Source of the DNA: Leuctra nigra
Lineage: Eukaryota > Arthropoda > Insecta > Plecoptera > Leuctridae
DNA length: 64,000 nucleotides
Assembly (NCBI GenBank): GCA_934045905.1
Contig: OW203765.1
Location: 25,757,151-25,821,150 of the forward strand
Reading direction: 5' to 3'
Position 1 is the stretch's first letter, and each line of letters begins with the position of its first letter. The translations under genes were made by a program, and so were the position numbers. The notes below the pieces were generated by a model. It was not told where the DNA came from and searched no databases. It saw only the letters and a list, made by a program, of their open reading frames with translations. Positions 26,879 through 58,546 of this stretch are shown one piece after another.

Positions 26879-26880
26879 GT

Positions 26881-27281: not shown

Positions 27282-27285
27282 ACTC

Positions 27286-37836: not shown

Positions 37837-38566
37837 TTAGTTTCCAGGGAAAGGAACAGGACATGCCCCGAGACTGTAGATCCAAGAAGCTGAAATGAAT
37901 CAAACAGAATCGATTTACGGCGTATTATTTATAACAATTAAATCCATATAGTTCAAGTATTTCATAATGCCACTTCCCGTATACAAAATTTAAATCGTTT
38001 AAATCATTGGAGAAATTCACTGGAGAAATTCATTTGGACGCATTTTGATCAAAAATGACGAAAGTTGATTGATGTTCACTAAGAGGCAGATCAGAGAAGA
38101 TGAAAGGAAAAAGGGTGCGAAAAGGTCAATATCGTAATTCATAAAAATCGTTCAAAAAAACTTTATACTTACAACCACCCTGTGCGCAAATGGATGTCGT
38201 CAGTTCACAGTAAGATAACACAGAAGCAATAGTTATTAGTACCAGGTGCCAACAGAAGACATCTGGTTTCCAGGTATCACTACCTCTTTAAGTGCAAATA
38301 ATAATTTCTATAGGAACGCTGGCTCTATACGATATAGTTTTGCTCTGCTTTCAGACAAAGTGACTGTACTAAAAAGAGTATTAAAAAACTGTTATTTTAC
38401 CCTTATAAAAGTAAGTATTGCTTTATATATGGCATTTCCTATTTTTCTTAATTCTTTATTTAACACGTAAGCTATATAAATCAATTTAAATGCTAAATAA
38501 AACCTTGTTATGTTTTGATAAAAACTTAGTGAACTTACCAAGACCAATGACAACGAAGGCTTTCAT
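37837..38566 (-). pseudogene. Kazal-like secreted protein gene D, probably a pseudogene
   Basis: Exon 1 (38566-38539) encodes MKAFVVIGL and ends with a GTAAGT donor in phase 1, as in the paralogues. Exon 3 (37889-37837) follows a good acceptor and encodes SWIYSLGACPVPFPGN with the final cysteine. The middle exon is damaged. From the equivalent acceptor (38368) to the donor after 38173 it is 196 nt instead of 201, and its frame meets TAG at 38325-38327. The frame that carries the family cysteines (FCWHLVLITIASVLSYCELT) meets TAA at 38288-38290. A later acceptor at about 38296 could skip the stop but would remove the first two cysteines and most of the signal peptide. I therefore call it decayed, with a small chance of an altered but working structure. 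Confidence 0.65.
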
Positions 38567-38639
38567 GTTGATTTGCAGAATTTTAGTTGATTTCCTGAGT
38601 ACTGGGCTCGTTTTGACACTTTACAGCGTATCAAGCAAA

Positions 38640-38660
38640 CTTAAACCTAATTACTATCAG
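38640..38660 (-). promoter_or_regulatory. Promoter-like block of gene D (GATA motif + degenerate TATA)
   Basis: On the minus strand CTGATAGTAATTAGGTTTAAG lies about 74 nt above the start codon, aligning with GATAA...TATAAAT in genes A and B. Confidence 0.4.
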
Positions 38661-38719
38661 TGGACGAGGCCATACTTCCAGTACATCGGCGGCCTCGGCC
38701 TATATCGTCATGTATAAAT

Positions 38720-39282
38720 TTAGTAAATTTTCAAAAGCTTGGAATAGGTAAGGTATACTCGTGATTATAGTAATCACTTGCTAAATATAATAAAACTAGC
38801 ATAATTTAAAATTGTGACTGTAAGTTACCGTAAGAGATAACGTGCCTTTAAATTCAAGCAGCCAAGTTGGAAGAAAAAAATGCCACTTTAAAATTGTATA
38901 ATGCAAAAATGTGAAAATTTAGTTTTAGAGTATTGATGAAACGTTCAAATTTGAAATGCTTTTTCAAAACGGTTATTACGTACCTCAACATCCAATCACC
39001 AGATATATATTTTACTTTTAGATGCATTTTGACATATAGAAACGATAATAGGTTGGTTATGTTCTTGATCGATTTATATACAATTTTGTATTGTATGATA
39101 ACATGTTGAACTGATGAGAAGATTTTTTTAAGTAACCAATAAGAGGAATTAGTTGAAAATGTGTGAAACGTAATTAAATATTCGTCTCTGTGACCTACGC
39201 AAAATTTCAAGTTCATCTGACAAATTTTCGAACAATCGCCAGATTTTCTTTAGATTTCGTTCTTCACCTCAGTAGGTGAAGA
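38720..39282. other. Intergenic region upstream of gene D
   Basis: AT-rich; no exon or repeat was recognised before the minisatellite. Confidence 0.4.
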
Positions 39283-39897
39283 CCTTCTCCTCAGTCTCCT
39301 CAGTCATCAGAAGGTCTTCACATAGTCTCCTCAGTCATCAGAAGATCTTCACATAGTCTCCTCAGTCTCCTCAGTCATCAAAAGATCTTCACATAGTCTC
39401 CTCAGTCTCCTCAGTCATCAGAAGATCTTCACATAGTCTCCTCAGTCTCCTCAGTCATCAGAAGATCTTCACATAGTCTCCTCAGTCTCCTCAGTCATCA
39501 GAAGGTCTTCGCATAGTCTCCTCAGTCTCCTCAGTCATCAGAAGATCTTCACATAGTCTCCTCAGTCTCCTCAGTCATCAGAAGATCTTCACATAGTCTC
39601 CTCAGTCTCCTCAGTCATCAGAAGATCTTCACATAGTCTCCTCAGTCTCCTCAGTCATCAGAAGATCTTCACATAGTCTCCTCAGTCTCCTCAGTCATCA
39701 GAAGATCTTCACATAGTCTCCTCAGTCTCCTCAGTCTTCAGAAGATCTTCACATAGTCTCCTCAGTCTCCTCAGTCATCAGAAGATCTTCACATAGTCTC
39801 CTCAGTCTCCTCAGTCATCAGAAGGTCTTCACATAGTCTCCTCAGTCTCCTCAGTCATCAGAAGGTCTTCACATAGTCTCCTCAGTCTCCTCAGTCA
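39283..39897 (+). repeat. 40-bp minisatellite, about 15 copies
   Basis: The unit has two CTCAGTCTCC words, CAGTCATCA, and the palindrome GAAGATCTTC (sometimes GAAGGTCTTC), then ACATAGTCTC. Most units are identical; an early unit is 30 bp because one CTCAGTCTCC is missing. It lies between gene D and gene C. Confidence 0.95.
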
Positions 39898-40156
39898 GCT
39901 CTAGATCGAAGAAACGGTGCGACCTGTAGATATCGCGTAAGAGACAGGCAAATAAACATACCAAAATAAACAAGGTCATGATCACCATGTTGATAAGGGA
40001 AACTGGTTAACAACTTCTGAATATTACTGTACAGCATTTACAAACGCAACTGTCAGTGATACAAAATATCTTTCATCCACATGTGTAAAATTTGATGTAT
40101 GGAATTGGTTCAATATGAATTTATTAAAAGTCTACAAGATAATTATTGTTCATATA

Positions 40157-40162
40157 TTTATT
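40157..40162 (-). terminator. Polyadenylation signal AATAAA of gene C
   Basis: AATAAA on the minus strand, 133 nt beyond the stop codon of gene C. Confidence 0.5.
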
Positions 40163-40294
40163 TTATGATTGATGTGCTACAAATTCAGTATCATCACAGT
40201 ATTCAATGCATACACAGTGCATAAAAACAATCGCCAAGTGCATTTAAATCGCATTCGAACTTTTGCCACTCTCCAGTTTATGGATTTTGTATCA

Positions 40295-43247
40295 TTATTT
40301 TCCTGGAGGACATGGCCCAACAATGTAGTTCCAAGAATCTGAAATATAAAAAAGTGTAGTCGATTGTAAGGAAATAGAGTAATTAGAACTATAATAGGTA
40401 CTGAATATTTCTACTATAAATTCTTTGTCACTCCTGTGTGTGCATAAGTTTTCTTACATTTGTACAGTTATGTACAAACACTTCTTATTATATTTCTAAT
40501 AATTGGGTTAGTTCTCCAAGCTTTAAAATAACATATTATTGCAAAGCGAGGGCAAACTTTATTGACTCGATATCAACAATTGAACTTTAGCAAATATCTA
40601 ACTAATTGTAATCGTTGGCCATCATTAGAAGAAAAAATGCGGAAAGAATAAGTCGGAGGGATGTTATCTGGTACTGTGTCATGTAAATACAAAATAATAA
40701 CTGCATGCCTGCATCGAAGGGTCGAAAAAGGGATTTCATATTCCTGAACCACAGTCTTCAGGTCAAGTGTTCCTAGAGAAATCAAGTAATACATGATGTA
40801 GAGGCACTTGAAAATGGTGTTCACGAAATCGCGAAAATTTTAAAAGTATTTTTTTCCATCATTTCTGGTCATAGTTTTGCACTAATAACAAATATGCAAG
40901 AATTAAATCGCGAAATATCGAGATTTTTTTTCATTTTACCACTATTTGAAAAAATTGGCTTAAAACGCGAAATTGGCACCGACATCCAGAGGTTATAATA
41001 ATAAAAAAAATAAAAATTGAAAGAAAAACACAATTTTTTAAACTTATTTTAAATGAGTGGAGATTGTTTTGAGCTATGTCATTGTCCTGAGAGAATTGTA
41101 GAATTTAACCTACCCCCCCCCCCCCCCCACTACTAGCCCGCTTTTGGGACAAGAATGTCAGGGAGAAATTGGTATTGATTTTTAAAAATGTGATCTCAAT
41201 ACCTGGATTGAGAACATCTAGAACAGAGATATCCATTTTTAATATGATAACATCAATTGAAATAAGTGTCAATGATTGTTTTCATCAAAATTTGGGAGTA
41301 TGTGTAAATTTTAACAAAATAAAACGAAATTAACACCGAAATTTTACTTTATGCACAGCTTTTAAACCCAATATTAGCATCCAGTAATCACCGACATTCT
41401 GATTTTCAAAACACAATTTTCAAGTGCCTCTAAATAATTGATGATACGTACAACCCGTTGGGCAGAGTTTAGCCACCATGCTGCAATACGTGGAGAATGT
41501 GAATGAAGTGAGGATGGACATCAGAGGCGTCGTGTACGAAGTGACACACACGGGCCCGGCCACGATGTTAACACAGGGGGGAGTGCAAGTGACGGTACGA
41601 AGTTTGCCGATTACTTGGACAGCGTTGCCCTCATCAGCAACGACAGCCAGCACTAGAATCAAACAATACGAATACTTTTAATGTTTTGGAACTATTTATC
41701 GATAAATAGTTTGGATAGATACAATAATATTCTCTCTTTTGAACGATTCTCAAATAAATATAGTTCGTGAATCGTTCAAAAGAGAGATGTTGTAAGATAC
41801 GAATATACTAAGTTACGTTTTATTTTGTTTTGATATAGCGAGAGTCACCAACGTACTCTTACTGCATTTTCTCTGTACTTTTTTTGCTAAACCGTTCAAT
41901 TGATTGATCTGAAATGTTGTACACAAACTAATGTCATATTAGTTGTCTCGTGTAAAGTTTTTGAACAAGATTATCGTTCCTCGTTATTCAGATCGATTGG
42001 TTGAACGGTGTGTGGGCGTTGAAGGCAAAACAAAAATCAAAATATAGCAGATTAAGAGCAGATTAAATAATACTTAATTAAGAGTACCGTGGGGACACGC
42101 CGCTAGCGTCTTTCCATACCCTAATCGAGCCCAACTCATTGATTTGAATATTTGCATTTTACGCGCTTTTAACGCCGAATCTATTCAGGATAATCAAACA
42201 TTCTAACACTCTCATTCATAATGAAGCAGCTAAGTGAGGTGTCTCCGCAATATTGAAAGTCTTACTCGCGTAATTGTTGACCGTTTGAAAATAAAAACAA
42301 TGTTCGGAAAGTAGATTTTAACATTTTATAAGGATACAAATTTCTGGATAACAAAATTCTGACGCGAGACAAAAATGCATTTGATTATAAGCAAGGCGAA
42401 ACAAAATGAGCAGAACAGGTTGGGTTTAATCAATAATTATAATAATCATGAATATTAAATTATGACCAATATTTCAGGTCAACCCCATTGGCCTACGCAA
42501 AAGTACCATTCGATCATTTGGATTTCGCGAATGTTTAGACAGGTTTAGATCAGACTAGATTCTCTAATATTGTCAGCTAGGTTTATTGTATAGGTCCAAT
42601 ATACCAATTTAAGATGGTTGTTAATAAGTGTTTTTGTGTTACAAAACAGGTACCAGTTTTTTAGGTGCTTAGGTACTAAGGTACTAAGATACCTAAGGTA
42701 CTAAGAATATACAGTAGGAAGTCACTGAAGGACGACATAAAATAATTTGAATTGCTAGAAAATATTTTGTTCAGTTCTTTAGTCTTTAAAGAGTTGTATC
42801 ATACGTCAATGGTTGTATTGAGTTGGGCTCGATTAGGGTATGGAAAGACGCACTCCGCTACGCTCGTTTATATAAAAACAGAGCCAAGATATTTCTTAAA
42901 TCAAAAGAATTGTGTTTTGACACTGTGACACATGTCATGTGACAGATCAATAAATATGTTTTTGTAGATGCTTTGAAAGAGTTTAGAAAAATTAATTAGA
43001 AGGTTTAAAATTTACTCTATATCACTGTGTCGCATGACGTATCGGACGAAACATGTACAATGTCAATGGAGGAATATTTTCATTTGTTTTAATTTTTTTA
43101 TTTTGACAGCTGTGTGTTTACAAATGTATAAAAACTTATACGTCATTGAAGATGTGATAGTACTTATGGATTCATAAATAAGTCCTCAATATTAAAGCAA
43201 TCTCTTCTGAAATACTTACCAAGACAGAAGACAACGAAAGCTTTCAT
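40295..43247 (-). CDS. Kazal-like secreted cysteine-rich protein, gene C (90 aa)
   Basis: Exons on the minus strand: 43247-43220 (28 nt), 41652-41452 (201 nt), 40338-40295 (44 nt). They join in phase 1 into a 90-codon frame ending in TAA. Donors are GTAAGT and GTACGT; acceptors end TTCTAG and TTTCAG. Residues 1-19 are a signal peptide (MKAFVVFCLVLAVVADEGNA begins it), so the protein is secreted. The six cysteines, 32, 36, 45, 66, 73 and 86, are spaced 3-8-20-6-12. Arthropod Kazal domains use about 3-7-10-6-12, and GPVC before C3 and a Tyr just before C4 also fit that family. The C3-C4 loop is about 10 residues longer. The second residue after C2, normally the inhibitor P1 site, is Asn, so protease inhibition is uncertain. 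It is the most diverged of the intact copies. Confidence 0.85.
41106..41127. repeat. Poly-C tract in intron 2 of gene C
   Basis: A run of about 20 C with no other associated structure. Confidence 0.85.
41731..41787. repeat. 19-bp perfect inverted repeat, 19-bp loop, in intron 1 of gene C
   Basis: TCTCTCTTTTGAACGATTC and its exact reverse complement lie about 80 nt before exon 2. It could be a small MITE end pair or a hairpin in the pre-mRNA. Confidence 0.75.
42106..42851. mobile_element. Candidate element with 33-bp perfect terminal inverted repeats, intron 1 of gene C
   Basis: Arms 42106-42138 and 42819-42851 are exact reverse complements, containing CCATACCCTAATCGAGCCC. The 680-bp interior has no transposase. 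No target duplication was found, so it could be an old element. Confidence 0.6.
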
Positions 43248-43308
43248 GTTGACTTGTTGATTGTTGAAAAATTGTGTTGGCTTCAACCGTTTTCATTCGT
43301 CCACATAA

Positions 43309-43327
43309 ATTTAAACCAAACATTATC
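43309..43327 (-). promoter_or_regulatory. Promoter-like block of gene C (GATAA + TTTAAAT)
   Basis: On the minus strand CTGATAATGTTTGGTTTAAAT lies about 62 nt above the start codon, aligned with the block in genes A and B. Confidence 0.5.
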
Positions 43328-44529
43328 AGTTTATGTAAATAAAGTAACAGCTATCAAAAGGTTGAAAAATGCAAAGAACGCGTTTTTAGTTATCATTTCC
43401 ATGACAAAAACGAATAAAATAGTTGATAACAAATCTTTACGGTTGTGAATCATAATTGCGATAGAATAAGCTTTTTAAATAAAGCAGAAAGTTGCGAGAA
43501 CGCCACTGAAATGTTTGCCCTAAATTTTGAGCTTTTATCGATGAACATAATATGAAACCTGCACATTTTGTAATAATGTTTATTCCTGGATATTATATTA
43601 ATATTCATGGGGTGCCTCTACTCCAGTCACTTTAACTTTTGACCCCAAACTAATTATTTATACAAATGTTTTTTGACGATATTTTGTAGGTCTCCACATA
43701 ACTCATAAACGAAAGAATGAACGAAAGAATGAAAGAATACGAAACGAAAGAATGCACTAACATTCTAGTCAAATTAAAACGATTTAAAATAGCATTTCTA
43801 CGCCATCTCGCAACCTCTAATTTCCCAAAACAAGAAGGGCTTGCCACTTACTCCTTCTTTGTTGACGAGAATTTCTTTTATGGCGTGAAATTCTTGCCCC
43901 CCCCCCCCCCCTATCCTTAACTTCAATAACATTCCTACGCCACTGCCCAGATACATGATATTTAATATGAACGGTGACCCACCAAATACAAATTACAATT
44001 GTTAATCTTTCATAACCCGGACACCGGGCTGTAAAACATTCTTATAACTTCACATGAATTAACGAATTCAAAGTATGTAATATAATGTATGGGTAATTTA
44101 ATTTAAAATTAGAAAAGGAACATTGAAAAGTTTTGCGTTAATCTTTTGCATGTACCTATGAGAACAGTTTTCACGTTATCGCTCCAACCTTGGTTGTAAT
44201 TCTTTAGGTGTAATTTCTTCTTTTCAAGGCAGAAGAAACCATATAACCAGCACTTTTTAGAAATTTTGTAGAAATTGATTATGAAAGTTGGCAAAAGGGT
44301 TTTGGTCATTTACCAAGATGATGAAATTGCTGGCGTTGGAGAAGGTCAAAGAACAAATTCATTGCAAATCAAAAAAAAATTGTGTTTCATGCATTTTTAA
44401 TACGACATCTTGTTACATTTCTGCACTGTCTCGTAAGAAGTGACTTCAGTGCATACAAATCATCACACGATCATGCACAGTGCAATAGTGCAATAGTGCA
44501 TTTAATGTCAAGATGTTCTGTTATGCTTA
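43328..44529. other. Intergenic region between genes B and C
   Basis: It holds a poly-C run (43897-43911). From about 43970 on it matches 55640 and following, the start of the duplicated unit, including CAAATACAA...CTAATCTTTCATAAC. No other gene was seen. Confidence 0.5.
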
Positions 44530-47500
44530 TTATCCATTTTTCTTTACACGAGAACATGCACCAGCGGTGAACGTCCACGACACTGAAATACAGAAATAAT
44601 TTAAATAGCGTTGGGTATTGATTGAAAATTAGGATTAGATATAAAACTATAGGCATTAGTACCAAATATCAACTCATAATAATTTATGTTTCACTTCATA
44701 CACAAAATGTAAGATTATATTAGTTTAATGTAAGTCTATAAATAATGTCCGGTCGAACAGGGGCTTGAACCCAGGATCGCTCAATCGCCGGACGAGAACT
44801 CTACCAACTGAGCTACCCGGCCTGACTGACGGTTAGAGATCTCCTAGGAGAATGGAATGAAGGTAGAATGCTCATCTACGAACTGTCATACTGGTGATGA
44901 TACTGTCACCATGTCTCACTGCACAAGCGTGCACTACCATTATTTTAACATTAGATGAGAAACAATTTTTAAATGCAAATTCATTATTAATCTATGTAAT
45001 CAATGATGACACAAAGGGTTCAAGTAAACTAAGTATAGTGTATCCCTAAGTCATCAGATGTTGGTAGAAAGTCAAAATATTGAAAAAAGTTATAACGCTT
45101 ACCAAGGTTCGCTTCATTGCAAACTGTTATCATCAAGCCACAGTAATCGGTATAAGTCAGATTCGGGGCAGAACTGTAGACCGTTGTCTTGTATGTTTTA
45201 AGACACATCTGACCCCAGCCTGGGGGAGTGCAACATGGGATGGTGCACTGATTCTTATCGTATGTATATATTATCTGCCCATGAGCAGTTCCAATAGCGA
45301 GCACTGGAATCAAACAAGACACGTAGTTAGGTGACGTCCATTCTTAGTCTTGTGACATTTGGAGCACAAAATTAAAATAACTTCGCTTTTGTTATTTGCT
45401 TTATTTGAATGAAATATATATATATTGAAATTGATAAAAATGCAATATTATCTTAATACCATAACTTAAATGAAATTATATTTTATTAAAGTTATGGCAT
45501 CCTGTCATATTATGACAGGATTCAATTGAAAATAGATGATGAATGTTTTCTTAGTCTTGTGACAAAAACGCCGCCATTTCAGCAAAAGAATGACAAAACC
45601 AAGGTGTTAACAACCTAACAATTTAGGGTCCACCATTTTTTTTTTTTTAAATTACATTATTTTTATTTTTGTCAATTATTTGTTTTTTTAATATTTTTTT
45701 GTTATTTTTTTGTTTTCTATTTTAATTTTAATTTTTTGTTTATTTTTATATTTTTAAATTATTTTTTGTTCCTTCAAATATTTTAACTTGATTTTTTTTA
45801 TTTTTTATTATATTTCAGATTTAGATTTTTTTATGATTTTGATTTAATTTTTTAATTTTTGTTTATTTTATTAAAGTGTACATTGATTCTTTTCGTTGTT
45901 CACCCCTCGGACAAAACTCATATGTTTCCTCTCCTGATCCATGATTCAGCTTAATGTTATCTCACTTGATTCTAGAAACTCTTCTGAATTCAATGGTACA
46001 TTCAAAAATACTCTACGACAAATAGTTTAGATTTTGTTCAAAATGTAAATCATTTGAAGGGAAAACAAATCTTAGCCTTGTGACCGTAGTCTTGTGACTA
46101 GCAAATTCACAACGTTAAAATATTTTTCACAGTACCAAGACAAAATATATTTGATGTGAAGAATGCCAGAAGTATCTGAAAGCTATTACATCATCTAGTG
46201 GAGCGGTCGCTCCACCCAGCCAAGTCGTACTATACACTCACACTCACTCAACATACCGTAAATGCATAATAAACTGAGGAGCAGACCAAACACTTTTACT
46301 GTAAGCAACAACATGGCATTTTCGGCCTACTGGATCTCAAAATTGGGAAATCTCACATTGTTGCGAAATAACTTAATTTCGAGCTAGGGCCCACCTGACA
46401 ACATATACCAAATTTGGGAACAATACGTTATGCCGTTTGGGTGCTAGAGGGCCGTGAAAACAGTGAAATTACACCCCTTTTAAAAGCTATCTGATGATGA
46501 TGATTCAGATATCAGGAAACGTTGCTATCACCGCCACAGCCTAAACGGCTGAACCGATCGATATGAAAATTTTACCACATGTGCACTTTTGGCGTCTGAT
46601 GATACCTTTGTTCTTATAAATTTTTTGTGCCGCCATTTTTAAACCGGAAGTGACGTCATATATCAAAAACGGCTGGACCGATTAGAACGAAATTAGCGCC
46701 ATTCGATTTAGAAGGTCATCTTTAAGGAATACCAATAGTGAAAGAAGAAATGTTCTATAACCTAAACCGGAAATGACGTCATAAAAATGACAAATCTGAC
46801 TAAAATCATCTCTTATATCAATAACTACATATTCAGAAGGCTTATAATGTTACATAACATTTATAGATACAAATTGTAGGTGGCAGTGATGTCAACCGCC
46901 ATTTTGAAAACCGGAAGTGATGCCGTAACTCGAGAACGGCTGGACCGATTGGAACGAAACTTTTGCTATACTTTGTAACATATCATTTATAGCATTAACA
47001 CAGTAACAAGCACAACTTTTCTTAGCAACCAAATCACAAAATCTTATTTTTTAAAAGAATTATAATCTTTGGTGCCACAATATGTTACAAGTTGTAATAA
47101 TAAACTGAAAAAAGGAGTGATATCCCCATAAAAAACACTCCGTGTAAAAATACCAGCCAAGTCTCTTCAATTAAAAAAAAATAGAAGAAATCTAAAAATT
47201 CAGCACTGAAAAGTAGTGATATCAAAAAATTGGCCAAGTCAAAACTTTTCAAAAAATACTTGGCGCATCGTTTTTTTTAGGACATGTGTAGATGAGTACA
47301 TTTCATTTCCTGCCTACTTCTATACTATTTATATGCACGAGGCGCCAAGTATTTTTTGAAAAGTTTTGACTTGGCCAATTTTTTGATATCACTACTTTTC
47401 AGTGCTGAATTTTTAGATTTCTTCTATTTTTTTTTAATTAAAGAGACTTGGCTGGTATTTTTACACGGAGTGTTTTTTATGGGGATTAAAATAATACAGA

Positions 47501-47693
47501 AATATAAAAAATGAAATAAAATAAGATTATTTTAATATGAAGACTTAAATTATTTAACATTATTATTACCGTCATAAATACTTCTAAAAGCTCATTCAAA
47601 CCAATACGATATGAAACATCTATCTCATTTTCTCCTTAAATGCCGGAATCTTGTAAACTTACCAAGAAGACAGCAGACGACGAAGACCTTCAT
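44530..47693 (-). CDS. Kazal-like secreted cysteine-rich protein, gene B (94 aa)
   Basis: Exons on the minus strand: 47693-47663 (31 nt), 45303-45103 (201 nt), 44582-44530 (53 nt), all joined in phase 1, giving 94 codons to TAA. Donors are GTAAGT and GTAAGC; acceptors are TTCCAG and TTTCAG. The signal peptide is MKVFVVCCLLVLAIGTAHG. The mature part has cysteines 30, 34, 35, 44, 65, 72, 87. Omitting Cys34, the spacing is 4-8-20-6-14, the same framework as gene C, with LTYTDYC at the fourth cysteine as in Kazal domains. Seven mature cysteines leave one unpaired, so a dimer is possible. It differs from gene A mainly in the tail after the last cysteine (SRVKKNG against SGVNGSG). Intron 1 carries the palindrome element 46195-47484 and intron 2 a tRNA-like repeat. 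Confidence 0.88.
44757..44826 (-). repeat. tRNA-like sequence in intron 2 of gene B
   Basis: On the minus strand GGTAGCTCAGTTGGTAGAG (D-arm, A-box) and CTGGGTTCAAGCCC (T-arm, B-box) are recognisable. The anticodon arm is not convincing, so I take it as a tRNA-derived SINE or tRNA relic. It is duplicated with its gene at 56453-56523. Confidence 0.6.
45640..45880. repeat. T-rich low-complexity stretch in intron 1 of gene B
   Basis: Long runs of T with ATTTTT words, matched by a similar stretch at 57830-58060 in gene A. Confidence 0.8.
46195..47484 (+). mobile_element. Terminal-palindrome foldback element, copy 2
   Basis: It starts CTAGTGGAGCGG, like 773-2137, and ends with 147-bp inverted arms (47124-47270 and 47338-47484). 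In the duplicated unit of gene A the same host sequence, CTATTACATCAT (58344-58355), runs on without it, so it inserted after the duplication. There is no coding capacity. Confidence 0.8.
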
Positions 47694-47785: not shown

Positions 47786-48725
47786 ACTCAATGTGATTAT
47801 TGTGAATATGAAAAGCAGTTGCCATACTAATTACTGCTGCTCAAAAATTATCACTTCCGCGATTATAAAAGTAGTAAAAAAAATAATCTAAACCCTACCT
47901 TGGGGCTGTAAATCATCGTTATAGTGTTTGCTGGCATAAAGATAAACAAAATAATTAGGTACCAGTGCTGAGCTTTTGTTTTCGAGTATCCTGCACATTA
48001 CGGCTATTCTAGTGGTACCACGTGACTAAACATATAAAACACGAAATTGGCCAAACTATTGCACATTAGAGGAAGATAATGTATTTTCCTCATTCTATAA
48101 GTGATTCACACTTGACATTTTTCGCCTCCAAAATTTTGGCCCGAAATGTTTTGACGAAATATTGATTTTGCTTTTAAAAAAATCTCAGAGACCGTAATTT
48201 TCATTATACAGACTTGCTAGTGGGCTCGTTGTCTTCGTTATGAAAATGCGAAGAGGCCAATAAGATTATTTTGGTTAATAACTTGTTTTTTAGCCTGGTC
48301 ACAGGCACCAATGAATTGACGAAATTTGCGGTATACCGAATTTATTTTAGAAAAATTGCAATAAAAATTCCGTAAAAGGACTTGAGTAGGTATACTTACC
48401 AGGTATATATATTAACATTATTCATGCCAAGTTTCAGCTTTCTATGTTCAACGGTTATTTAGTTTAGACTTTTTCTGTGAATCGTCTTTGACCCGTTTGG
48501 ATCGTCCCGGATATTTTGTGATTTTCCAAAATGGGTTGATTTCGCTAAATATCGATCTCAGCTGACATCTACTTACATTTGCCCTGAAATTAAAATCTCA
48601 TACCTCTCCTAGAATCCTCTTACCTCGTCATAGATTATTTTATTTTAGTATTGATACTGATATTGAAAAATCATCTACATCCATACGAAGATTTTCGACG
48701 AAGAAAACAAAATGCCAGCTATATA
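47786..48725. other. Region upstream of gene B
   Basis: Up to about 48010 it matches 58640-58860 of the other unit. From 48610 to 48720 it matches the flanks of the Helitron-like insertion at 58874 and is its uninterrupted version. No exon was seen. Confidence 0.5.
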
Positions 48726-48900
48726 CAGTTCGTTTTTCCTATGTTTGAACTCTCACCAGATGGAGCCACAGTCAGTTGTTCTGCTAGGCCGAGAAAGACT
48801 TCATTGCGCGCTCACCTTGCAATGTTGTCTTTCTCGGCCTAACAGAACAACTGACTGTGTCTCGGTCTGTAGAGAGTTCAAACATAGAAAAAACGAACTG
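48726..48900. mobile_element. 175-bp palindromic element with TA flanks
   Basis: The ends CAGTTCG and CGAACTG lie between TA dinucleotides (48724-48725 and 48901-48902). The whole element is a near palindrome centred on the GTCTTTCTCGGCC words. The other unit carries a hAT-like element at the same host position. Confidence 0.75.
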
Positions 48901-48947
48901 TACACCTCCATGATGTTAGTACTAGTAATGAAATAGCAGTTTTCAGA

Positions 48948-49031
48948 ACCCATAAAAAACGCTCCATGTAAAAATGGTAGCCAAGTCTCCTTCAACTAAT
49001 AAAAAATTAGATTCTAAAATTTCAGCACTGG
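48948..49031 (+). repeat. Solo foldback arm fragment
   Basis: CCCATAAAAAACGCTCCATG and what follows match the arm of the 773-2137 family. A second copy in the duplicated unit is at 60073-60160 and another solo arm is at 53513-53662. Confidence 0.6.
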
Positions 49032-49491
49032 AATAGATTTTGAGTTAATTTTTAAAGTAAGCAATAAGAAGGTAATCAGTGTCTATGGCCATGATATAAA
49101 CGAATATTTGACATAATAAAATAATGTTAAGATTATTTTCTGAGTCACATAAAACCTGTGGATAAGAAGCGAGTATGAGTTAAGTTATAGCTCTGTTTAG
49201 GTGACAGTATATTACTTAATCAGTGTTTCATGTCAAATGTCACGTAGGCACAAAGTATTACGTTTTGGTTGTACATAATGCCGGTTACTAAGATTAAGTT
49301 TTGGCTGATTTTGTTATTACATTGAACTGATTCAACATTGAAGTATCTGCCAATTTATAATCCGAAAGTCAGATAATCCGCCTAAACCTAATCTTTGGTA
49401 AATACAGGCCATCATTATCACTATCACTTTAGGATAACGCCTTCATAATCGAATGACTGATCGCCAACTAGTACCGGCACCCTATATGAAA
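49032..49491 (+). repeat. Duplicated block, matches 60420-60811
   Basis: It is the same sequence as 60420-60811, with small differences, ending at GGCACCCTATATGAAACA. This is the right part of the duplicated gene unit. Confidence 0.75.
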
Positions 49492-49534
49492 CAATACAAA
49501 TTTACTGTTTTATTATCTTAATCAGTCCAGTACA

Positions 49535-51840
49535 GTGTGGAACTACAAAAAGGCAGATATTCCAGGAATCACAGAGTACCTCTTCTCCGCTTTCCAAGAT
49601 TGGAGTTCGCAAAATGGTGATATTCACACCTACTGGTCGAGTCTCAAGACCTTACTAATGGACGCACGAACGAAGTTTGTTCCACAACGCACCGTCAGGA
49701 GGAGGAATGATCCGCACTACTACAACCAAGAGGTCAGAAGACTAAAGAAAAAATGTCGCGCAGCCTACTCTACGAGAAAAGATCCCAACTCCAAGTTTAA
49801 GAATCTGTCCCGTCAATTGAAGATATCCAAAGAAAATGCTCTGGATAAACACATGGTTGGACTTTTAGACGCCGACAAATCCGATAACTGGAGAAAATTT
49901 TACAGACACATAAACTCTCAGAAAGGGAATTTTAACTCGGTACTCGCTTTGAAAAAGGAAGATGGATCTCTAGCTGCATCTGATGTTGAAAAAGCCATCG
50001 AACTCAACTCGAAGTACGAGAAAGTCTTCAATTCCGACCCACGCTGGTCCATAGGTAGTGGTGCAATTCCTAACTCTTCATGTTCTCCTAACTCTGATCC
50101 CAGCTTCACGTTCACTAATGCAAAAATCAAATCTATAATTGATAAACTGAAATTCAACACTGCTCAAGGCCCTGATTGCATCCCCTCACAGTTACTGAAA
50201 CTTGCCCGAGTTGCAATCTGCCCCTTTCTTAATATGTTATTCTCCATGTCAATAAACAACTGTCAGCTACCTGATGATTGGAAAACCGCCATTATCCACC
50301 CAATCTTCAAGAAGGGAGCGCGAAGTGACGCATCAAACTACCGGCCGATAAGCAACACGTCCATCATTTGCAAGATTTTTGAAAGAGTAATAACAGACTA
50401 CATCCACGACACCTGGAGAAGGAACAACTGGCTTAGTAACGTACAGCACGGCTTCCGCAAAGGATTTTCATGCGAATCGCAACTCATTGGATTCTCCCAA
50501 CAACTGACTAGCTGCCTCGACAATAGAGATCAAATAGATGGAATTTTCCTTGATTTTCTAAGGCGTTTGATGTTGTCCCCCACAAGCGTCTGATCGAAAA
50601 ATTCTCTAACATGGATCTTGATAATCGAGTTGTTAAGTGGATTGCTGAATTCCTAAACAACAGGTCCCAGGTAGTACGAGTTGGAGGAGCCATGTCCCCA
50701 CCAGTCGAAGTGAAATCAGGTGTACCCCAAGGCACAGTCCTGGGCCCGGCTCTCTTCATTGGTTTTATCAACTATATTGTCGATAAAACCACAAGCCACG
50801 TACGTCTTTTTGCAGACGACTGTATAGTCTACTCAGTAGTCAAAAATAAAGCAGATGAGCAGATACTTCAACATGACCTTAATGAAATTTTCAATTGGAC
50901 TGATGAGAATGGGATGAAACTCAATGAGGGGAAAACATGCTTCATCAGTTTCTCAAAGAGTAGAAACCCCATTGACTCTCAGTACACGCTGAACGGACAC
51001 ATCCTTCCTAAATCCGAATCATGCAAGTACTTGGGCATCAACTTCCAGCGCGATTTATCTTGGAAAGGACACATCCACAGTGTATTGTCAAATGCAAGGA
51101 GGAAGATGCACTTTGTGATGAGAAATCTGAAGGGTAGCCTGCCACAGACAAGAGACCACGCATTCAAGTGCCTCATTAGACCCCTTGTGGAATACTGCAG
51201 TGCAGTGTGGGATCCTCACAGGAAGAACCTGATAACATCACTCGAGAGCATCCAGAATAAGGCGGTTCGATATGTGCTCATAACCACCGTCGTTGGTGTA
51301 AGTCTACCAACAGGCCGGCCTTCAGCGTGAGCAAAGCAAAAGAAATTCGCAAATGGGAACCACTACGCCTGCGCCGAGCTCGAGCAAGTCTCCGATGCCT
51401 GTTTAAGGCCATGTCAGGACATCCAGCTTGGTCAGATGTTGCCGAACTCACAGCGCCAGCAACGTTCCGGGGAAGAAAGGGCCATTCCAAGAAAATCTTC
51501 ATCTCCAGAAACAAGACGGACTTGGGACGTCACTCATTCCTGGGACGGACATCGAGGCTATGGAATGAACTGCCACTTGAGATATCTGAAGCTAATGACA
51601 TTAACGCATTCAATCAAATAATTCTCGATCATCCATTAGAACTGGTAGCTCAAATCCTTCATTAGAAATGTTCATTAATAGATTAGAATCTGATCATAGC
51701 ACTGAACTGAAACTTGATGCTACAACAGCTGACTAGCAGCCACTGGAAAAATTTACATGTGTATTTTAATATCTTATTAATAATGTACATTGTATTCCTA
51801 AGCTGTTAATAAAATTATATTATATTCTAATTTTAAAAAA
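49535..51840 (+). pseudogene. 5'-truncated CR1/L2-type LINE, reverse transcriptase with two frameshifts
   Basis: The readable protein lies in three consecutive frames: 49535-50593, then from about 50560 to 51330, then about 51300 to 51665. The first break is one missing T in the run at 50554-50558; the second is near 51280-51330. RT motifs in order are NYRPIS (near 50340), the fourth motif SGVPQGTVLGP (near 50720-50750) and FADD (50809-50820), followed by the C-terminal region ending with LWNELP. No endonuclease domain precedes RT, so the copy is truncated at its 5' end. The 3' tail ends in a short A run (to about 51840). Assignment to the CR1/L2/Jockey side of LINEs is by motif style only. 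Confidence 0.85.
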
Positions 51841-51850
51841 AATGATATAA

Positions 51851-52210
51851 CTAGGAAAACGCTCTGTGTAACGCGTTGATGAGCGAGCACCGACACGCGC
51901 AATGTCGCCAATCGAGCACGATCCATTCAATCAAAGATAACTAACTATACATCATTAGGTAGTACTGATTTTCATCGAAACTTTCCATAAACATTCTGGA
52001 CAAATTAAATAACAGATCAGTGTAACATGAATTTGATACTTCTCCATCAATCTCTGCGAACAGATATTCAGCAATAAGTCTTTAAATTCTTGACCGATTG
52101 GGCAAGAAATGTGTAAATATGAGATGTCACATGTGCTATTATCTAGTAGAAACGTTCATTCTAACAATAACTGTGAAACACGATCCACATATTCAAAAAA
52201 AAATGTAAGT
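51851..52210 (-). mobile_element. Helitron-like non-autonomous element, partial
   Basis: On the minus strand it ends with the family 3' end GCGTTTTCCTAG followed by T. Its 3' hairpin region matches the copies at 53966 and 58874, but the interior is diverged and its 5' end is not clear. Confidence 0.5.
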
Positions 52211-52539
52211 AAACATATGGGCTGTTCAAAAAATACGCGGACTGATTTTTTGCAAATGTGGTCTGCAACCAGTAGGAGCTGAAAGTTGCGATAGGTGCCA
52301 AATGTGGTAGTGAACCTTACTGCACATGCGTGATTTTTTTCATCCTCGCCTGATAGTTGGGCGCCATCAGGCAGCCAGTGAACGATGTTGCCTAGCAGCC
52401 GCTCGTAAGATTCAGCAGACTTTCGGCAATGATGCTTTGGAGGTTACACAATTAAAATAATGGTTTAACCTAGTTTAACCGGTTTAAAAATGACCGAACT
52501 TCAGTTGACACTGAGACAGGCATTTATTGGATGATGCAT

Positions 52540-52830
52540 CTGAATCATCATTATTATCTGAAAGCCGTACAATTCCACGATTTTCACGGTCCTCAAGCTC
52601 GCAAACGGCATAACGTATTATTGCCAAACTTGGAATATATGGTAGCGTGGGCCATAGCTCTAAATTAAAATATTTCGCTACAATGTGAATTTTCCATTTT
52701 TAAGATCCATTAGGCCGTAAATGCCACTTTGATGCCTACAGTAAAAGTGGTGGGTTGCTCCGGTATGTTGTGTGAGAGTGTGCGTGGCGTGCCGTACGAC
52801 TTGGCTGGCGTGGAGCGACCGCTCCACTAG
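52540..52830 (-). mobile_element. Terminal-palindrome element, copy 3 (truncated)
   Basis: It is reversed relative to copies 1 and 2. It ends at 52830 with GCGACCGCTCCACTAG and contains the block CGGCATAACGTATTATTGCC. The foldback end is missing. Confidence 0.65.
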
Positions 52831-53002
52831 ATTGCACAATAAAGAATAAATTATTATAGCTGAGTTTTGTATCAATTCAAAATTCCAACACCATTCAAGT
52901 CAGTAATGATTTTTAATTTTAAATTGTTGTCAAATATTTGTTTATCTAGTAGGGTTGGCATTATAATTCCTTTGAATAAACAGTTATTTTACATGTCAAA
53001 TA

Positions 53003-53325
53003 AACCAATGTCGCAAAACCAGGAGAAGGGCACAAATCAACATAATTCTGATAATTTGTTAGATAATTTTTACTATAATGTCGCAAAAACACGACTAGGT
53101 AAAAAATAATAATCTTCTGATTATTTGTTTGATAATTATTTTAAACTAACCAATCAGGTCACTCCGCGAGAAGGGCACGAATTAACATAATTCTGATAAT
53201 TTTGTTGATAATGTTTTTGACTATCCAATGACGCAAACCCCGAGAAGGTCACGAATAATAATCATTATGATAATGTGTTCTAAAAATGTTTTCTACTGAC
53301 CAATGGGGTGACTCCGCGTATCATC
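53003..53325 (+). repeat. Imperfect tandem repeat, three to four ~75-145-bp units
   Basis: Units begin with AACCAAT and contain GAGAAGGGCACGAAT (or a variant) and ATTCTGATAAT. They are diverged and non-coding. Confidence 0.65.
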
Positions 53326-53512
53326 GGTAAATTTTATAATAATATTAAGTGTGGATTGGATTTTGTGGATAATATATTGTAACATAATTGTAAACTGAAA
53401 TTAAGTATTGCTCTTACATTTCCACGCGGAAATTTCTTATGGCTCGAAATGTACCCGCAAGTTTTATTCAAAATAATCAAGTAGGTATTGGCTATACTGT
53501 ATTTCAGGAAAA

Positions 53513-53662
53513 AAAACACTCCGTGTAAAAAGGGCAACCAAGTCCCTTCAACTAAGAAAAAAGAATTAAATCTTAAATTCAGCACTATAAATAATATAGT
53601 GATATCAAAAAATGGGCCAAGTCAAACTTATTTAAAAAATTAAAAAATAGCTTGACGCATCG
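53513..53662 (+). repeat. Solo foldback arm
   Basis: It matches one arm (CACTCCGTGTAAAAA ... CTTGACGCATCG) of the family at 1745-2137 without its partner arm. Confidence 0.7.
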
Positions 53663-53965
53663 TACATTTGTTTATTAGGTATAGATAGGTATATTATAGA
53701 GGAGGGCTTAGTTTAAAAAGTGTCGAAGTCCCCTTTTGTAGTTCTGAGTTGAAAAAAAGATTGAAAAGTTTTCGTTATATCTACATGTTGTGTATTGTCT
53801 TAAGTGATAAAAAAGCAAAATATATTTAAGATGAAACGGAGTATACTTACTAAATTGTTATCAAAGAATTAAGAAATGGACTTAGAGCCTTTTTAATTAG
53901 GGACACTAAATCCAGCTAAATCGAAGCCTTTTTACTTGGGATAGACCATGATAGACTAATAAACA

Positions 53966-54570
53966 CTAGGAAAACGCTCAGAGTACCGCGTTGATGAGCG
54001 AGCACGGGTACGTGCAATGTCTCGATCCGGAAATGCGCACACAACGCACAGAAAACATATACATCCGTGTTGAATTGAAATGATCCACTCATCAACATAA
54101 ATGTATCTGCTTTTCATTGAAACTTGAAAATAGCATCACTCTGGGTAGTACATGAAGCAAATCAGATTCAGTTGAGTGGTTTTTCGATACTTGTTTTCTG
54201 ACTGCTATTAAAAATGTCAATAAGTTCACCTTATTAACTGATTAGGATGAAAAATTTTTAAAATAAGAGACAGTTTGTCTTAATGACCATGCAAAATATG
54301 AGTTTAATCAGATTTATGGAAGACCATTTTAATTTTTCAATCTATCAGGAGACATTTATTTAAATTTGAACAAATGAACGGATTTAAAAAACATTAGAGT
54401 CTGAAACGCCCGGAAATTGTCCGTAGTAGTACACGTGTGCACAATTTCAGCTCCATCGAAGTAAAAACTGTGACCAGCTGTAAAGCCTCAGTAACAGAAA
54501 AAAAGAAACAAATAAACCAAATAAACCGTACCAAAAGAGACAAATGGTGTTGCTCGATTTAATCGCTCAA
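53966..54570 (-). mobile_element. Helitron-like non-autonomous element (605 bp)
   Basis: On the minus strand it begins TTGAGCGATTAAATCGAGC after an A and ends GCGTTTTCCTAG before a T. The 3' end has a hairpin close to CTAG. No Rep/helicase gene is present. Confidence 0.7.
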
Positions 54571-55271
54571 TTAGCAGCGCAGTTTTATTTTAAGATGCCA
54601 CATAATAATGGAAATATGTGTTTAAATGTAAGCCCAAAAAGTTAGTATATCAAAGGTTGATTTTATAGTACATTTGACGAATTTTTACATTTGATCATTA
54701 ATGTATGTATACACTTGGCACAACTAAAAACGGTATTGGAGAAAACAAATTGGCTGCTGGTGAGGTCCCTTGACACTCAATCCTTGTTATTATCAATGAA
54801 ACCAGAGCTCATCTACAAGAGTTAGATGACTCATGGGATGATGCCATCAAATCTTTTTGAGCCAATCCGTTTTTTTCGAATACTTACATAGCGTTTTTAG
54901 TTTGGCCAAGTGTTCATATTATTTGACTAGACGTGTCTACATCACGGAAAATGGTCTAAAGATACATAAAATAAATAATTTAATCTAAAATAATCTCAAC
55001 CTTCTTTTGTCTAAATTCAGGACTGCCCACTTTTAGCGTGCCTTATGTTGTCAACTTTAACTTCAAGTGGGGGGGCTGCCAACTTCACGGACATTGTTGT
55101 CAGTTCCTCACAGCCCAGTTCAAGATTATACGTTATAAGAACTGTACTGATTACATTAGACTAATTCTAAAACAACTTCGTCTTAAAAGATACCGATGCT
55201 ACCATCCAGTACAATAATTATGTTCCTTGTTCTCAAATATCTCATATTTCCTAGACTCTGAAAGCATCAGC
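54571..55271. other. Duplicated unit flank, no gene
   Basis: 54690-55040 matches 62730-63060, and 55150-55271 matches 63640-63750. The left part of the gene A unit is thus repeated at the right edge of the window. No exon was seen. Confidence 0.55.
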
Positions 55272-55598
55272 CAGGTTTAGGCGATTAGGAAGGGAGGGGG
55301 GGGGGGGGAATGAGGGGGGATCCCCCCCCCCACTCGAGCAGGTAACCCCCCATTCACTATACAAAATTAAGTTTAGTGTCCAAAAATCACTTAAAAATTG
55401 TTTAATCTAAAAAAAACTGCCGTGCGGGGCAACAATTGGAGGGTTTCTTGCTTCAGTTTGGGCATTTTATAGCCCCAGAATCACTTTTAAATGGTTTATA
55501 TTCTCAAAAACGCCCTGCGGGACTAAAACTGGCAATCCCCCCCCCTCCCCCCCCCCCCCCCCATGACAAAAGTAGTTCCTACGCGCCTGGCCAGGTTT
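55272..55598. mobile_element. Probable hAT-like insertion with G/C runs (311 bp)
   Basis: CCAGGTTT stands at 55272-55279 and 55591-55598, while the related sequence at about 63752 has a single CCAGGTTT without the insert. The ends (AGGCGATTAGGAA against AGGCGCGTAGGAA) are imperfect inverted repeats. There is no transposase. Confidence 0.65.
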
Positions 55599-56138
55599 CT
55601 CACTATTCGCCATTGTGTCCCTCCTATACATGTAACGATGGCCTACCAAATATAAATACAACTGCTAATCTTTCATAACTCGGACACAGCGGTTATTCAA
55701 CATTCGTATAACTTCACATATTTACTAATTCGAATTATCTAATATATGATGGCTAATAAAAATTTAATTCAAAATTAGTAAAGGAACTTTGAAAAGTTTT
55801 GCGTTAACCTTTGTCAAATGCCTGCAGTTTTCATGTTATCGCTTTAACCTTGGATGTAATTCTTTATAAATTTTGGGTCATTTCTTCTTTTCATCCTAGC
55901 TACTGTTTTTAAATTAGATGAATTCGTTGCTAGGCAGAAGAAACCGTGTAACCAACAGTTTTTAGAAATTTTGTAGAAAATGATAATGAAAGGTGGCAAA
56001 CGGGTTTTGGTCATTTTCCACGACGATGAAATTGCTGGCGTTGGAGAAGGTCAAAGAACAAATTCATTGCAAATCAAATCACGCATTTTTAATAAGTCAT
56101 CTTGTTACATTTCTTCACCATCTCGTCAGAGGTAACTT

Positions 56139-56158
56139 CAGTGCATACACAGTGCATA
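56139..56158 (-). promoter_or_regulatory. Conserved motif in the 3' untranslated region of gene A
   Basis: TATGCACTGTGTATGCACTG on the minus strand. Near-identical TATGCACTGTGTATGCATTG occurs after gene C (about 40203-40222), and a weaker form occurs after gene D where the hAT-like element has landed. Confidence 0.45.
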
Positions 56159-56211
56159 CAAATCGTAAAGTGCAATAGTGCATTTAATGTCAAGATGTTT
56201 TGTTATGTTCT

Positions 56212-58546
56212 TCAACCAGATCCATTGACACCAGAACATGCACCAGCGGTGAACGTCCACGACACTGAAAAATAGAGGAATAGTTTAATTGATTGTTGGT
56301 ATTTGTTGGTAATTGGTAATTGGTAATTGATAATTGGTAATTCGTTAGTAATTGATTGAAAATTAGGATTAGATATAAAAAGCATTATTTTCGAATATTG
56401 ATTCACTTCATACACAAAATGTAAGATTATATTATTATATAAATAATGTCCGGCCGAACATGGGGGTCAAACCAGGGATCGCTCAATCGCCGGACGAGAA
56501 CTCGACCAACTGAGCTACCCGGTCCGACTTACGAACAACGCGCGATAGGGTTAGAGATCTCCTAGGAGAATGGTATGAAGGTAGAGAATGCTCACTACGA
56601 ACTGTCATACTGGTGACGATACTGTCACCATGTCTCATTGCACAAGCATGCACTACCATTATTTTAACATTAGAAGAGAAACAATTTATAAAAGGCAAAT
56701 TCATTTTGTAATCAATGATGACACAAAGGGTTCAAGCAAACTACAGTGTATCCCTAAGCAATTCGTCAGATGTTGGTAGAAAGTCAAAATATTGAAAAAA
56801 GTTATAACACTTACCAAGGTTCGCTTCATTGCAAATTATTATCATCAAGCCACAGTAATCGGTATAAGTCAGATTCGGGGCAGAACTGTAGACCGTTGTC
56901 TTGTATGTTTTAAGACACATCTCATTCCAGCCTGGGGGAGTGCAACATGGGATGGTGCACTGATTCTTATAGTATGTATACAATATCTGCCCGTGAGCAG
57001 TTCCAATAGCGAGCACTGGAATCAAACAAGACGCGTAATTAGGTGACGTCCATTCTTAGTCTTTTGACATATGGAGCACAAAATTATAATAACTTCGCTG
57101 TTTGAAATATGCTTTTTTACTGAATCCCTCAGTTAGGTGAATGTTAATAAATACCAACTGCAATGTGAAAAGATTTTCCTCGAGTGGGACTCGAACCCAC
57201 GACCTTCCGATATCCAGTCAGATGCTCTACCAACTGAGCTACCGAGGCAGTTCACATTGCAGCGGCTGTGTTCCAATATAAGCTGCGTTAGCAACTTACC
57301 GATTTTGATTATAGGGTCAGAAGACCGTGAATTTCATCCACGTTTGACAACTGACTAACTTCATTCGACTTGGATTTCTCATAAGCAGATGAGTGCGCAT
57401 ATGTATGAAATATTTATTTACTGATTCCCTCAATCAGTAAAGCAGTAAAAAATCATTAAAAAAATCAGTAGCTCGGTAGCTCAGCTGGTAGAGCATCTGA
57501 CTGGATATCGGAAGGTTGTGGGTTCGAGTCAGACTCGAGGAAAATCTTTTCACATTGCAGTTGGTATTTATTAACTTCGCTGTTGTTTGCTTTAATTGAA
57601 TGAAATATTATAATATTGAAATTGAGAGCAATGCATTCATATTTTTTTTTAGCAATAATATAATACCGTAACATCAAAGAAATGATATTTCATTAAAGTT
57701 ATACATCATGTCATACTTTGACAGAGATGACGACTGTTTTCTTAGTCTTGTGACAAAAACGCCGCCATTTCAGCAAAAGAATGACAAAACCGAGGTGTTA
57801 ACAACTCGACATTTTAGTGTACCTACACCTGAATAATTTTATTTTATGAGTTATTTTTTTCGTTTTTTATTTTTATGGTTATTTATGATTTTTTCCCCTT
57901 TTTTCTTATTCTTTATTATTTTTTTAATGATTTTTTGTTTCTTCAAATATTTAAAAAAAAAATATTATTATTTTTGAAACCTCTTTTTTTTACATACTTA
58001 ATTTTTTAGTTTTTTAAATAATTAAGATGTGATTTTTTTATTTTTTATTTTATTTTTTTAAAGTGTACATTGATTCTTTTAGTTGTTCACCCCTCGGACA
58101 AAACTCATATTTTTCCTCTCCTTATCCATGATTCCACTTGATTCTAGAAACTCTTCTGAATTCAATGGACCATTCAAAAATACTGTACGACAAATGTTTA
58201 GATTTTGTTATCAATTGAAGAGAAGAAAATCATAGTCTTGTGACCTTAGTCTTGCGACTTGCAGATTCACAACGTTCAAATATTTTTCACAGTCAAGACA
58301 GTATGTATTTGATGTTGTGAAGAATGCCAGAAGTAGCTAAGAGCTATTACATCATAAAAAAATATAAAAAAAAATTAGATTATTTTAATATGAAGACTTA
58401 AATTATTTAACATTTTTAGTACCGTCATAAATACTTCTAAAGGCTCATTCAACCCAATACGATATGAAACATCTATCTCATTTTCTCCTTAAATGCCGGA
58501 ATCTTGTAAACTTACCAAGAAGACAGCAGACAACGAAGACCTTCAT
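56212..58546 (-). CDS. Kazal-like secreted cysteine-rich protein, gene A (94 aa)
   Basis: Exons on the minus strand: 58546-58516 (31 nt), 57015-56815 (201 nt), 56264-56212 (53 nt). They join in phase 1 into 94 codons ending in TGA. Donors are GTAAGT; acceptors end TTCCAG and TTTCAG. The signal peptide MKVFVVCCLLVLAIGTAHG implies secretion. Mature cysteines are at 30, 34, 35, 44, 65, 72, 87; leaving out Cys34 gives spacing 4-8-20-6-14, a Kazal-like order with a long C3-C4 loop. LTYTDYC at C4 parallels the TYxNxC of Kazal domains. The residue two after C2 is Pro if Cys35 is C2, which is atypical for an inhibitor. Compared with gene B it has substitutions in exon 2 and a different tail. Other small cysteine-rich families cannot be excluded. 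Intron 1 holds the composite SINE 57101-57571. Confidence 0.9.
56453..56523 (-). repeat. tRNA-like sequence in intron 2 of gene A
   Basis: This is the counterpart of 44757-44826, sharing the D-arm-like GGGTAGCTCAGTTGGT; the T-arm-like part is more mutated. A SINE or tRNA relic duplicated with the gene. Confidence 0.6.
57090..57582. mobile_element. Composite SINE-like insertion with two opposed tRNA-like heads, intron 1 of gene A
   Basis: The 11-bp direct repeat TAACTTCGCTG (57090-57100 and 57572-57582) flanks a 471-bp insertion that is absent from the same place in gene B (near 45390). Inside, tRNA-like sequences lie in opposite orientation: 57178-57250 on the minus strand and 57471-57543 on the plus strand. 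Arms 57143-57246 and 57472-57575 are complementary over 104 bp. The D-arm GGTAGCTCAG and T-arm GGGTTCGAGTC are clear. The anticodon loop would read GGA (Ser), but there is no long variable arm, so they are not functional tRNA-Ser genes. Confidence 0.75.

Follow-up and report, generated by a model that had tools for sequence, protein, structure and literature searches.

The window (the whole 64,000-nt stretch of DNA that was analysed) carries on its minus strand three intact genes, B, C and D, and one decayed copy, A, arranged in tandem. They are paralogs with a common gene structure, and the proteins of the intact genes share a common order of cysteines. The best explanation, to which we assign a probability of about 0.6, is a tandem animal gene family that arose by repeated segmental duplication and in which each gene encodes a single secreted Kazal-type domain. 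The cluster of duplicated genes is real and of a fairly ordinary kind, and by appearance its members look like distant relatives of Kazal proteins.

Gene structure and duplication

An earlier note on this DNA had described three intact genes and one decayed gene, and all four were found on the minus strand. Their exons, and a copy of the region flanking gene D, are located as follows.

58516..58546, minus strand: gene D exon 1, 31 nt; ATG and first part of the predicted signal peptide; donor gtaagt
56815..57015, minus strand: gene D exon 2, 201 nt; remaining predicted signal peptide and C1-C5
56212..56264, minus strand: gene D exon 3, 53 nt; final cysteine and stop
47663..47693, minus strand: gene C exon 1, 31 nt
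45103..45303, minus strand: gene C exon 2, 201 nt; C1-C5
44530..44582, minus strand: gene C exon 3, 53 nt; final cysteine and stop
43220..43247, minus strand: gene B exon 1, 28 nt
41452..41652, minus strand: gene B exon 2, 201 nt if donor gtacgt is used; C1-C5
40295..40338, minus strand: gene B exon 3, 44 nt; final cysteine and stop
38539..38566, minus strand: copy A exon 1, intact; donor retained; match to B
38173..38239, minus strand: copy A exon 2 remnant, 3' part; C4-C5 region, donor gtaagt; weak match (E 2.3), exact ends placed by eye
37837..37889, minus strand: copy A exon 3, 53 nt; final cysteine and stop, acceptor tttcag; weak match (E 1.3), ends placed by eye
63747..63995, no strand assigned: copy of the gene D 3' flank, 79%

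In B, C and D, exons of 28-31, 201 and 44-53 nt are separated by introns that are all GT..AG and all in phase 1 (six of six in both respects), and the three-exon, phase-1 layout that had been proposed holds for every intact gene. The last cysteine is indeed encoded by a short C-terminal exon (44 nt in B, 53 nt in C and D). The claimed size of exactly 201 nt for exon 2 likewise holds throughout; for gene B it depends on choosing the strong donor gtacgt, since a weaker in-phase donor, gttgta, located 3 nt upstream, would give 198 nt. The proteins of B, C and D are probably secreted, judging by eye from the N-terminus of the translations.

Copy A spans positions 37837-38566. Its exon 1 differs from that of B by four substitutions over 34 nt and has kept the donor, and roughly one third of exon 2, at its 3' end, is left; the part of exon 2 encoding C1-C3 was sought in this copy and not found. 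The remnants of exons 2 and 3 were identified by position and splice signals, their sequence matches being weak.

The two branches of the family, B on the one hand and C and D on the other, recognise each other through exon 2. A profile of C and D recovered exon 2 of B at E 1.6e-4 among 2904 six-frame pieces of the window, and in the same set B as query found C at E 5.2e-5 and D at E 2.1e-3. Mutual detection at such values among so many pieces makes a chance origin unlikely, in agreement with the earlier judgement that chance was very improbable. Among the best 14 matches of these cross-branch searches, neither exon 1 nor exon 3 of the opposite branch appeared. Between B and C, synonymous differences approach saturation (pS 0.72, pN 0.41), and their differences at the three codon positions number 37, 39 and 51 of 87, the third position being highest. 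Genes C and D, by comparison, are a recent segmental duplication (pN 0.062, pS 0.071).

That all these sequences are pseudogenes or exon-like pieces that are not expressed seems to us very unlikely. Such a reading would fit the decay of copy A and the C-D comparison, in which constraint after the split leaves no clear sign. Against it, three copies have kept their frames, splice sites and cysteines despite the near-saturation between B and C. Moreover, gene D has a TATAAA element 79 nt 5' of its ATG; both C and D retain the TATA box and the leader, and close to the start codon the leader is also alignable with copy A and gene B.

The duplicate of D's 3' flanking region at the right edge of the window suggests that another gene unit may lie just outside, past the right end, where its exon 3 would be expected about 0.4 kb on; no exon belonging to this flank copy was found within the window. 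On either strand of the window there were no additional convincing members among the matches listed. One candidate, at 52964-53140 on the minus strand (C and D profile, E 0.026), was rejected: it has two cysteines, neither in the family spacing, and is partly tandem repeat. A pattern search of viral contigs gave 11 matches with no relative among them.

Evidence for and against a Kazal domain

Kazal domains constitute a well-known family of protease inhibitors, folded as a three-stranded sheet with one helix, in which the successive loops between cysteines measure about 1-8, 7-9, 10, 2-6 and 12-20 residues. We tested the proteins for a Kazal-type domain in the sense of MEROPS I1 and Pfam PF00050 and PF07648. 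The cysteine spacing of the mature part is 3, 8, 20, 6, 12 in B and 3, 0, 8, 20, 6, 14 in C and D, the latter two thus having a seventh cysteine, which counts against a Kazal domain. All loops fall within the Kazal ranges except C3-C4, which has 20 residues, not 10, and lacks the usual G-x-D-G turn.

Similarity to Kazal domains extends beyond the cysteines. Resemblance to the Kazal motifs P-V-C, T-Y-x-N-x-C and G-x-C is above that of shuffled sequences and strongest in B. In BLASTP, B and the Kazal domain of follistatin FS1, a single chosen comparison, are identical at 13 of 45 positions (E 2e-4) with cysteines C1-C5 aligned. Cysteine-anchored pairwise comparisons of the three proteins with five Kazal references placed 8 of 15 scores at or below 1% of shuffles and 12 of 15 at or below 5%, as opposed to none of three for a Kunitz control; these tests are not independent, since C and D are close kin and the references are related. 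Against greglin, the anchored scores were equalled by 61, 351 and 566 of 4000 shuffles for the three proteins, none reaching 1%. A position-specific score built from 11 follistatin/agrin Kazal domains and compared with 20000 cysteine-fixed shuffles was matched by 5 shuffles for B, 139 for C and 341 for D. In absolute terms all three proteins score below zero (B -2.5, C -10.5, D -14.4), against 39.6 to 52.6 for the 11 training domains.

Database searches were less favourable. The earlier note had suggested profile searches for Kazal families together with structure prediction; the searches were run and gave no match for the family proteins in Pfam or NCBIfam at E 10, nor for mature B and C in Pfam at E 1, and no Kazal family profile matched the family above its curated cut-off. 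The Pfam cut-off is, however, an insensitive test, because greglin, an atypical Kazal, also falls under it (Kazal_1 at E 3.3 and 8.2 bits, cut-off 21). PDB sequence searches returned no Kazal and no significant match. The hits to phospholipase A2 (PDB 2wg8; E 1.3 and 1.2, the latter being the only profile match), confined to a single 37-residue stretch, to an EGF-like ligand (E 0.54) and, for B, to receptors or antibodies (E 0.55-2.2) are at chance level. An hhalign comparison of the family with seven Kazals was not significant (probability 0.2 out of 100, E 0.3). AlphaFold models, made for exon 2 alone of B and C, are too poor for use (pLDDT 46.6 and 48.8) and disagree with each other, that of C having a helix around C4-C5 and that of B strands only.

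The Kazal-like character proposed in the earlier note is backed by the anchored comparisons and the residue similarity and finds no counterpart in the profile, PDB and hhalign searches: a Kazal reading of the sequences is supported, not proven, with scores far below those of true Kazals. It is somewhat unlikely, in our view, that the proteins form a secreted, cysteine-rich family without kinship to Kazal domains that came to a similar order of six cysteines by convergence. The null searches, negative absolute scores, poor models and long C3-C4 loop without its turn all speak for such an origin. Convergence would leave unexplained the residue similarity besides the cysteines, including the stretch T-[FY]-x-x-[YE]-C around C4 and the closing G-x-C motif of C6, both common to the family and follistatin FS1. 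A degenerate Kunitz-type domain is extremely unlikely. Kunitz domains have the spacing 8, 15, 7, 12, 3, with C5-x3-C6, and the family comes near in loop lengths only (8, 20, 6, 12 versus 8, 15, 7, 12). We dropped this candidate: the sixth cysteine is missing at the required place, the anchored scores of all three proteins are at shuffle level (3682, 551 and 656 of 4000, with BPTI as the one reference), and Pfam gives no Kunitz match.

Relation to known Kazal proteins and possible role

The Kazal domains of follistatin and agrin (Pfam Kazal_2; PDB 2b0u, 8s9p) share C4-x6-C5 with the family and have C5-x13-C6, next to 12 or 14 in the family. FS1, with C1-x3-C2-x9-C3, resembles the family further, and B and FS1 have C-x-P-x-C-x-N-I..GPVC in common. 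In all 11 domains compared, however, C3-C4 has 10 residues and the domains belong to multidomain proteins, whereas the family has 20 residues and a single domain.

Greglin is a locust protein known in complex with subtilisin. Like the family, greglin (PDB 4gi3) is a small single-domain protein with C1-x3-C2 and a lengthened C3-C4 loop (14 residues) that stays under the Pfam cut-off; its C5-C6 spacing is x13 when C5 is assigned to the cysteine at x6. Unlike the family, it has long N- and C-terminal extensions and other extra cysteines, and the sequence match is weak (BLASTP E 0.02 for B and 2.6 for C). In PMC6950245, greglin is called an atypical Kazal, and the centipede venom protein ShSPI, another atypical Kazal, is a single small secreted domain with C1-x3-C2 and C4-x6-C5 as in the family, but without C3 and C6 and with a short C3-C4 region. 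Rhodniin, infestin and vasotab, Kazals from the saliva and gut of blood-feeding insects, form secreted multigene families according to PMC8762107; they are Kazal by sequence, whereas the B, C and D proteins are missed by Pfam. Since arthropod multigene sets of this kind are known, the cluster is no surprise of principle.

A literature search with six peptide strings of the family gave no match, and such a C3-C4 loop is absent from the titles and abstract beginnings listed by searches on atypical Kazals or loop insertions. A statement on the 'third and fourth cysteine' in PMC11335235 concerns Diedel proteins.

If the genes do encode Kazal-type proteins, a precursor of 90-94 residues, with its signal peptide interrupted by intron 1, would give a secreted mature protein of about 70-75 residues. 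This would be one small disulphide domain with follistatin/agrin-like spacing (C4-x6-C5) and a C3-C4 loop longer by about ten residues, its last cysteine contributed by the separate short exon, and it would adopt the Kazal fold through the pairings C1-C5, C2-C4 and C3-C6. Outside the cell, the protein might inhibit proteases or serve as a binding protein built on a Kazal scaffold, with the long loop as a variable surface. Inhibition is a guess, because the residue at the predicted P1 site, which we take to be C2+2, is Asn in B, with Thr or Pro at this site in C and D, none of which indicates a usual trypsin or elastase target. More speculative, and rather doubtful, is the idea of a lineage-specific branch of secreted one-domain proteins in which the doubled follistatin-type C3-C4 loop became the functional surface, the inhibitory P1 was abandoned and the tandem array has been spreading and decaying at a single locus.

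Should the Kazal assignment be true, the Kazal scaffold would accept a C3-C4 loop of 20 residues, exceeding those of all the references compared (follistatin/agrin 10, greglin 14), and the family would be another set of secreted proteins invisible to Pfam. Exons as short as the 44-53 nt that carry the last cysteine may, moreover, be overlooked by gene finders.

Structure and coding character of the cluster

Rebuilding the gene models from the DNA reproduced the arrangement described in the earlier note, namely three intact genes and one decayed copy that lie on one strand and share a three-exon layout. All four copies are on the minus strand and follow one another head to tail, D first, then C, B and A:

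58.5-56.2 kb, minus strand: gene D, exons of 31, 201 and 53 nt
47.7-44.5 kb, minus strand: gene C, exons of 31, 201 and 53 nt
43.2-40.3 kb, minus strand: gene B, exons of 28, 201 and 44 nt
38.6-37.8 kb, minus strand: decayed copy A

In B, C and D, introns 1 and 2 alike are phase 1. The six donors read gtaagt (four), gtaagc (one) and gtacgt (one), and the six acceptors consist of a T-rich stretch followed by cag (five) or tag (one). The uniform length of 201 nt claimed for exon 2 holds in B, C and D, in B only if, of two in-frame donors separated by 3 nt, the stronger is used. After splicing, the product of B is 90 residues long and those of C and D 94, each precursor starting with hydrophobic residues (MKAFVVFCLVLAVVA / MKVFVVCCLLVLAIGTAHG) that look, by eye, like a signal peptide. 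TATAAA lies 79 nt upstream of the ATG in both C and D, and no TATA match was found in the 250 nt upstream of B. AATAAA occurs about 132 and 169 nt past the stop codon of B; within 500 nt past the stop, C and D have ATTAAA only.

That so repeated a layout is unlikely to be due to chance is borne out by the two branches of the cluster, B and C+D, which detect each other's exon 2 in a search of the window's 2904 six-frame pieces. In this test, for which exons 1 and 3 are too short to stand out, a C+D profile built without B matches exon 2 of B (E 1.6e-4), and B alone matches C (E 5.2e-5) and D (E 2.1e-3). Between B and C, pS is near synonymous saturation (0.72), pN is lower (0.41) and third codon positions are the most changed (51 of 87, versus 37 and 39 at the others), the pattern that coding sequence would show. 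In the part adjoining the start codon, the 5' leaders of A, B, C and D are alignable. Copy A retains exon 1, exon 3 and roughly the final third of exon 2, with a splice signal on each; the part of exon 2 carrying cysteines C1-C3 was not found in it, and its exon 2 and exon 3 remnants are weak matches (E 2.3 and 1.3).

Probable relationship to Kazal domains and possible function

The mature parts have cysteine spacings of 3, 8, 20, 6, 12 (B) and 3, 0, 8, 20, 6, 14 (C and D). The order is like that of the follistatin Kazal domain FS1 (3, 9, 10, 6, 13), but the C3-C4 loop is twice as long as in Kazals of the follistatin/agrin kind. This cysteine order, on which the earlier Kazal-like assignment was based, stands, and shuffles with the cysteines held fixed speak for the assignment too, whereas database searches are silent: the proteins had no match in Pfam or NCBIfam, no match of note among PDB sequences, and no signal in profile-profile comparison with Kazals. 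The silence of Pfam says little, because greglin, a locust protein of solved structure termed an atypical Kazal in PMC6950245, also scores below the cut-off (8.2 bits versus 21, E 3.3). It does indicate that the cluster proteins are more remote than greglin.

With scoring derived from 11 follistatin/agrin domains, the shuffles that reached the observed score numbered, out of 20000, 5 for B, 139 for C and 341 for D, although the absolute scores are negative (B -2.5, C -10.5, D -14.4; training domains 39.6 to 52.6). Against five single Kazal domains, 8 of 15 tests fell at or below 1% and 12 at or below 5%. Gaps were left free for the real sequences and for the shuffles; the tests are non-independent, C and D being close relatives and the references related to each other. 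With greglin as reference, none of B, C and D reached 1% (61, 351 and 566 of 4000 shuffles). BLASTP of B against FS1, one chosen comparison, gave E 2e-4. Structural models of exon 2 alone were of low confidence and mutually contradictory, and they speak neither for nor against the fold. Kunitz domains were tried as well and rejected, the control with BPTI failing in all three proteins.

Overall, we put the probability of a Kazal-type fold at about two thirds. Most likely, the protein would be secreted and would fold as a Kazal-type domain. That it inhibits a protease is predicted with somewhat less than even confidence. In B the second residue after C2, which we take to be the inhibitory P1 place of Kazal numbering, is Asn; in C and D it is Thr or Pro. 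None of these would be a usual target-defining residue, and the C3-C4 loop is the part most altered relative to the Kazals compared; together these leave inhibition in doubt. Among arthropods, multigene sets of secreted Kazals are reported from the saliva of blood-feeding bugs (PMC8762107) and an atypical Kazal from centipede venom (PMC6950245); Kazals of a termite defence gland and of Nasonia venom are reported as well. We regard the cluster as, most plausibly, a divergent variant of such known secreted Kazals.

Duplication history and surrounding repeats

Genes C and D are, judging from their alignment, products of a recent segmental duplication. Their identity is 97.3% in the upstream 300 nt, 96.8% in exon 1, 95.5% in exon 2, 90.9% in intron 2 (aligned positions), 83.0% in exon 3 and 84.9% downstream; the first introns differ by a repeat and tRNA-like inserts. 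All 10 amino-acid differences lie downstream of the stretch taken by eye for a signal peptide, and pN (0.062) and pS (0.071) give no sign of strong constraint, although the counts behind them are small. Since a copy of the C/D 3' flank occupies the window's very end (63747-64000), a further gene unit probably lies just outside its right end. Colinear repeated segments, in pieces 76-93% identical, adjoin the 3' end of gene D (53954-55843) and the window's right end (62142-63995), consistent with a larger duplicated unit running past that end.

Other elements in the window are:

21895-27282, minus strand: Ty3/gypsy-like LTR retrotransposon with gag (25540-26898) and pol (22328-25573; reverse transcriptase, RNase H and integrase domains)
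49490-51665, plus strand: LINE-like reverse transcriptase in overlapping frames, between C and D
39278-39897: 40-bp unit repeated in tandem about 14 times with 98% matches, located between A and B
57175-57249 and 57469-57543: pair of oppositely oriented tRNA-Ser(GGA)-like sequences, first intron of D
44750-44822: tRNA-Ala-like sequence, second intron of C
34788-36028, 1745-2137 and 47122-47486: long palindromes (fold-back elements), 89-93% self-complementary

The Ty3/gypsy-like element has a 402-bp direct repeat at either end; the two copies show 100% identity, so its insertion is probably recent. The tRNA-like sequences in the introns of D and C are perhaps SINE-related. The palindrome at 47122-47486, inside the first intron of C, is part of a longer repeat (46193-47483) with a second copy at 771-2137. 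Many arthropods have little CpG methylation; here, a CpG observed/expected ratio of 0.91 at about 36% G+C suggests, as a weak pointer, a genome with low CpG methylation.
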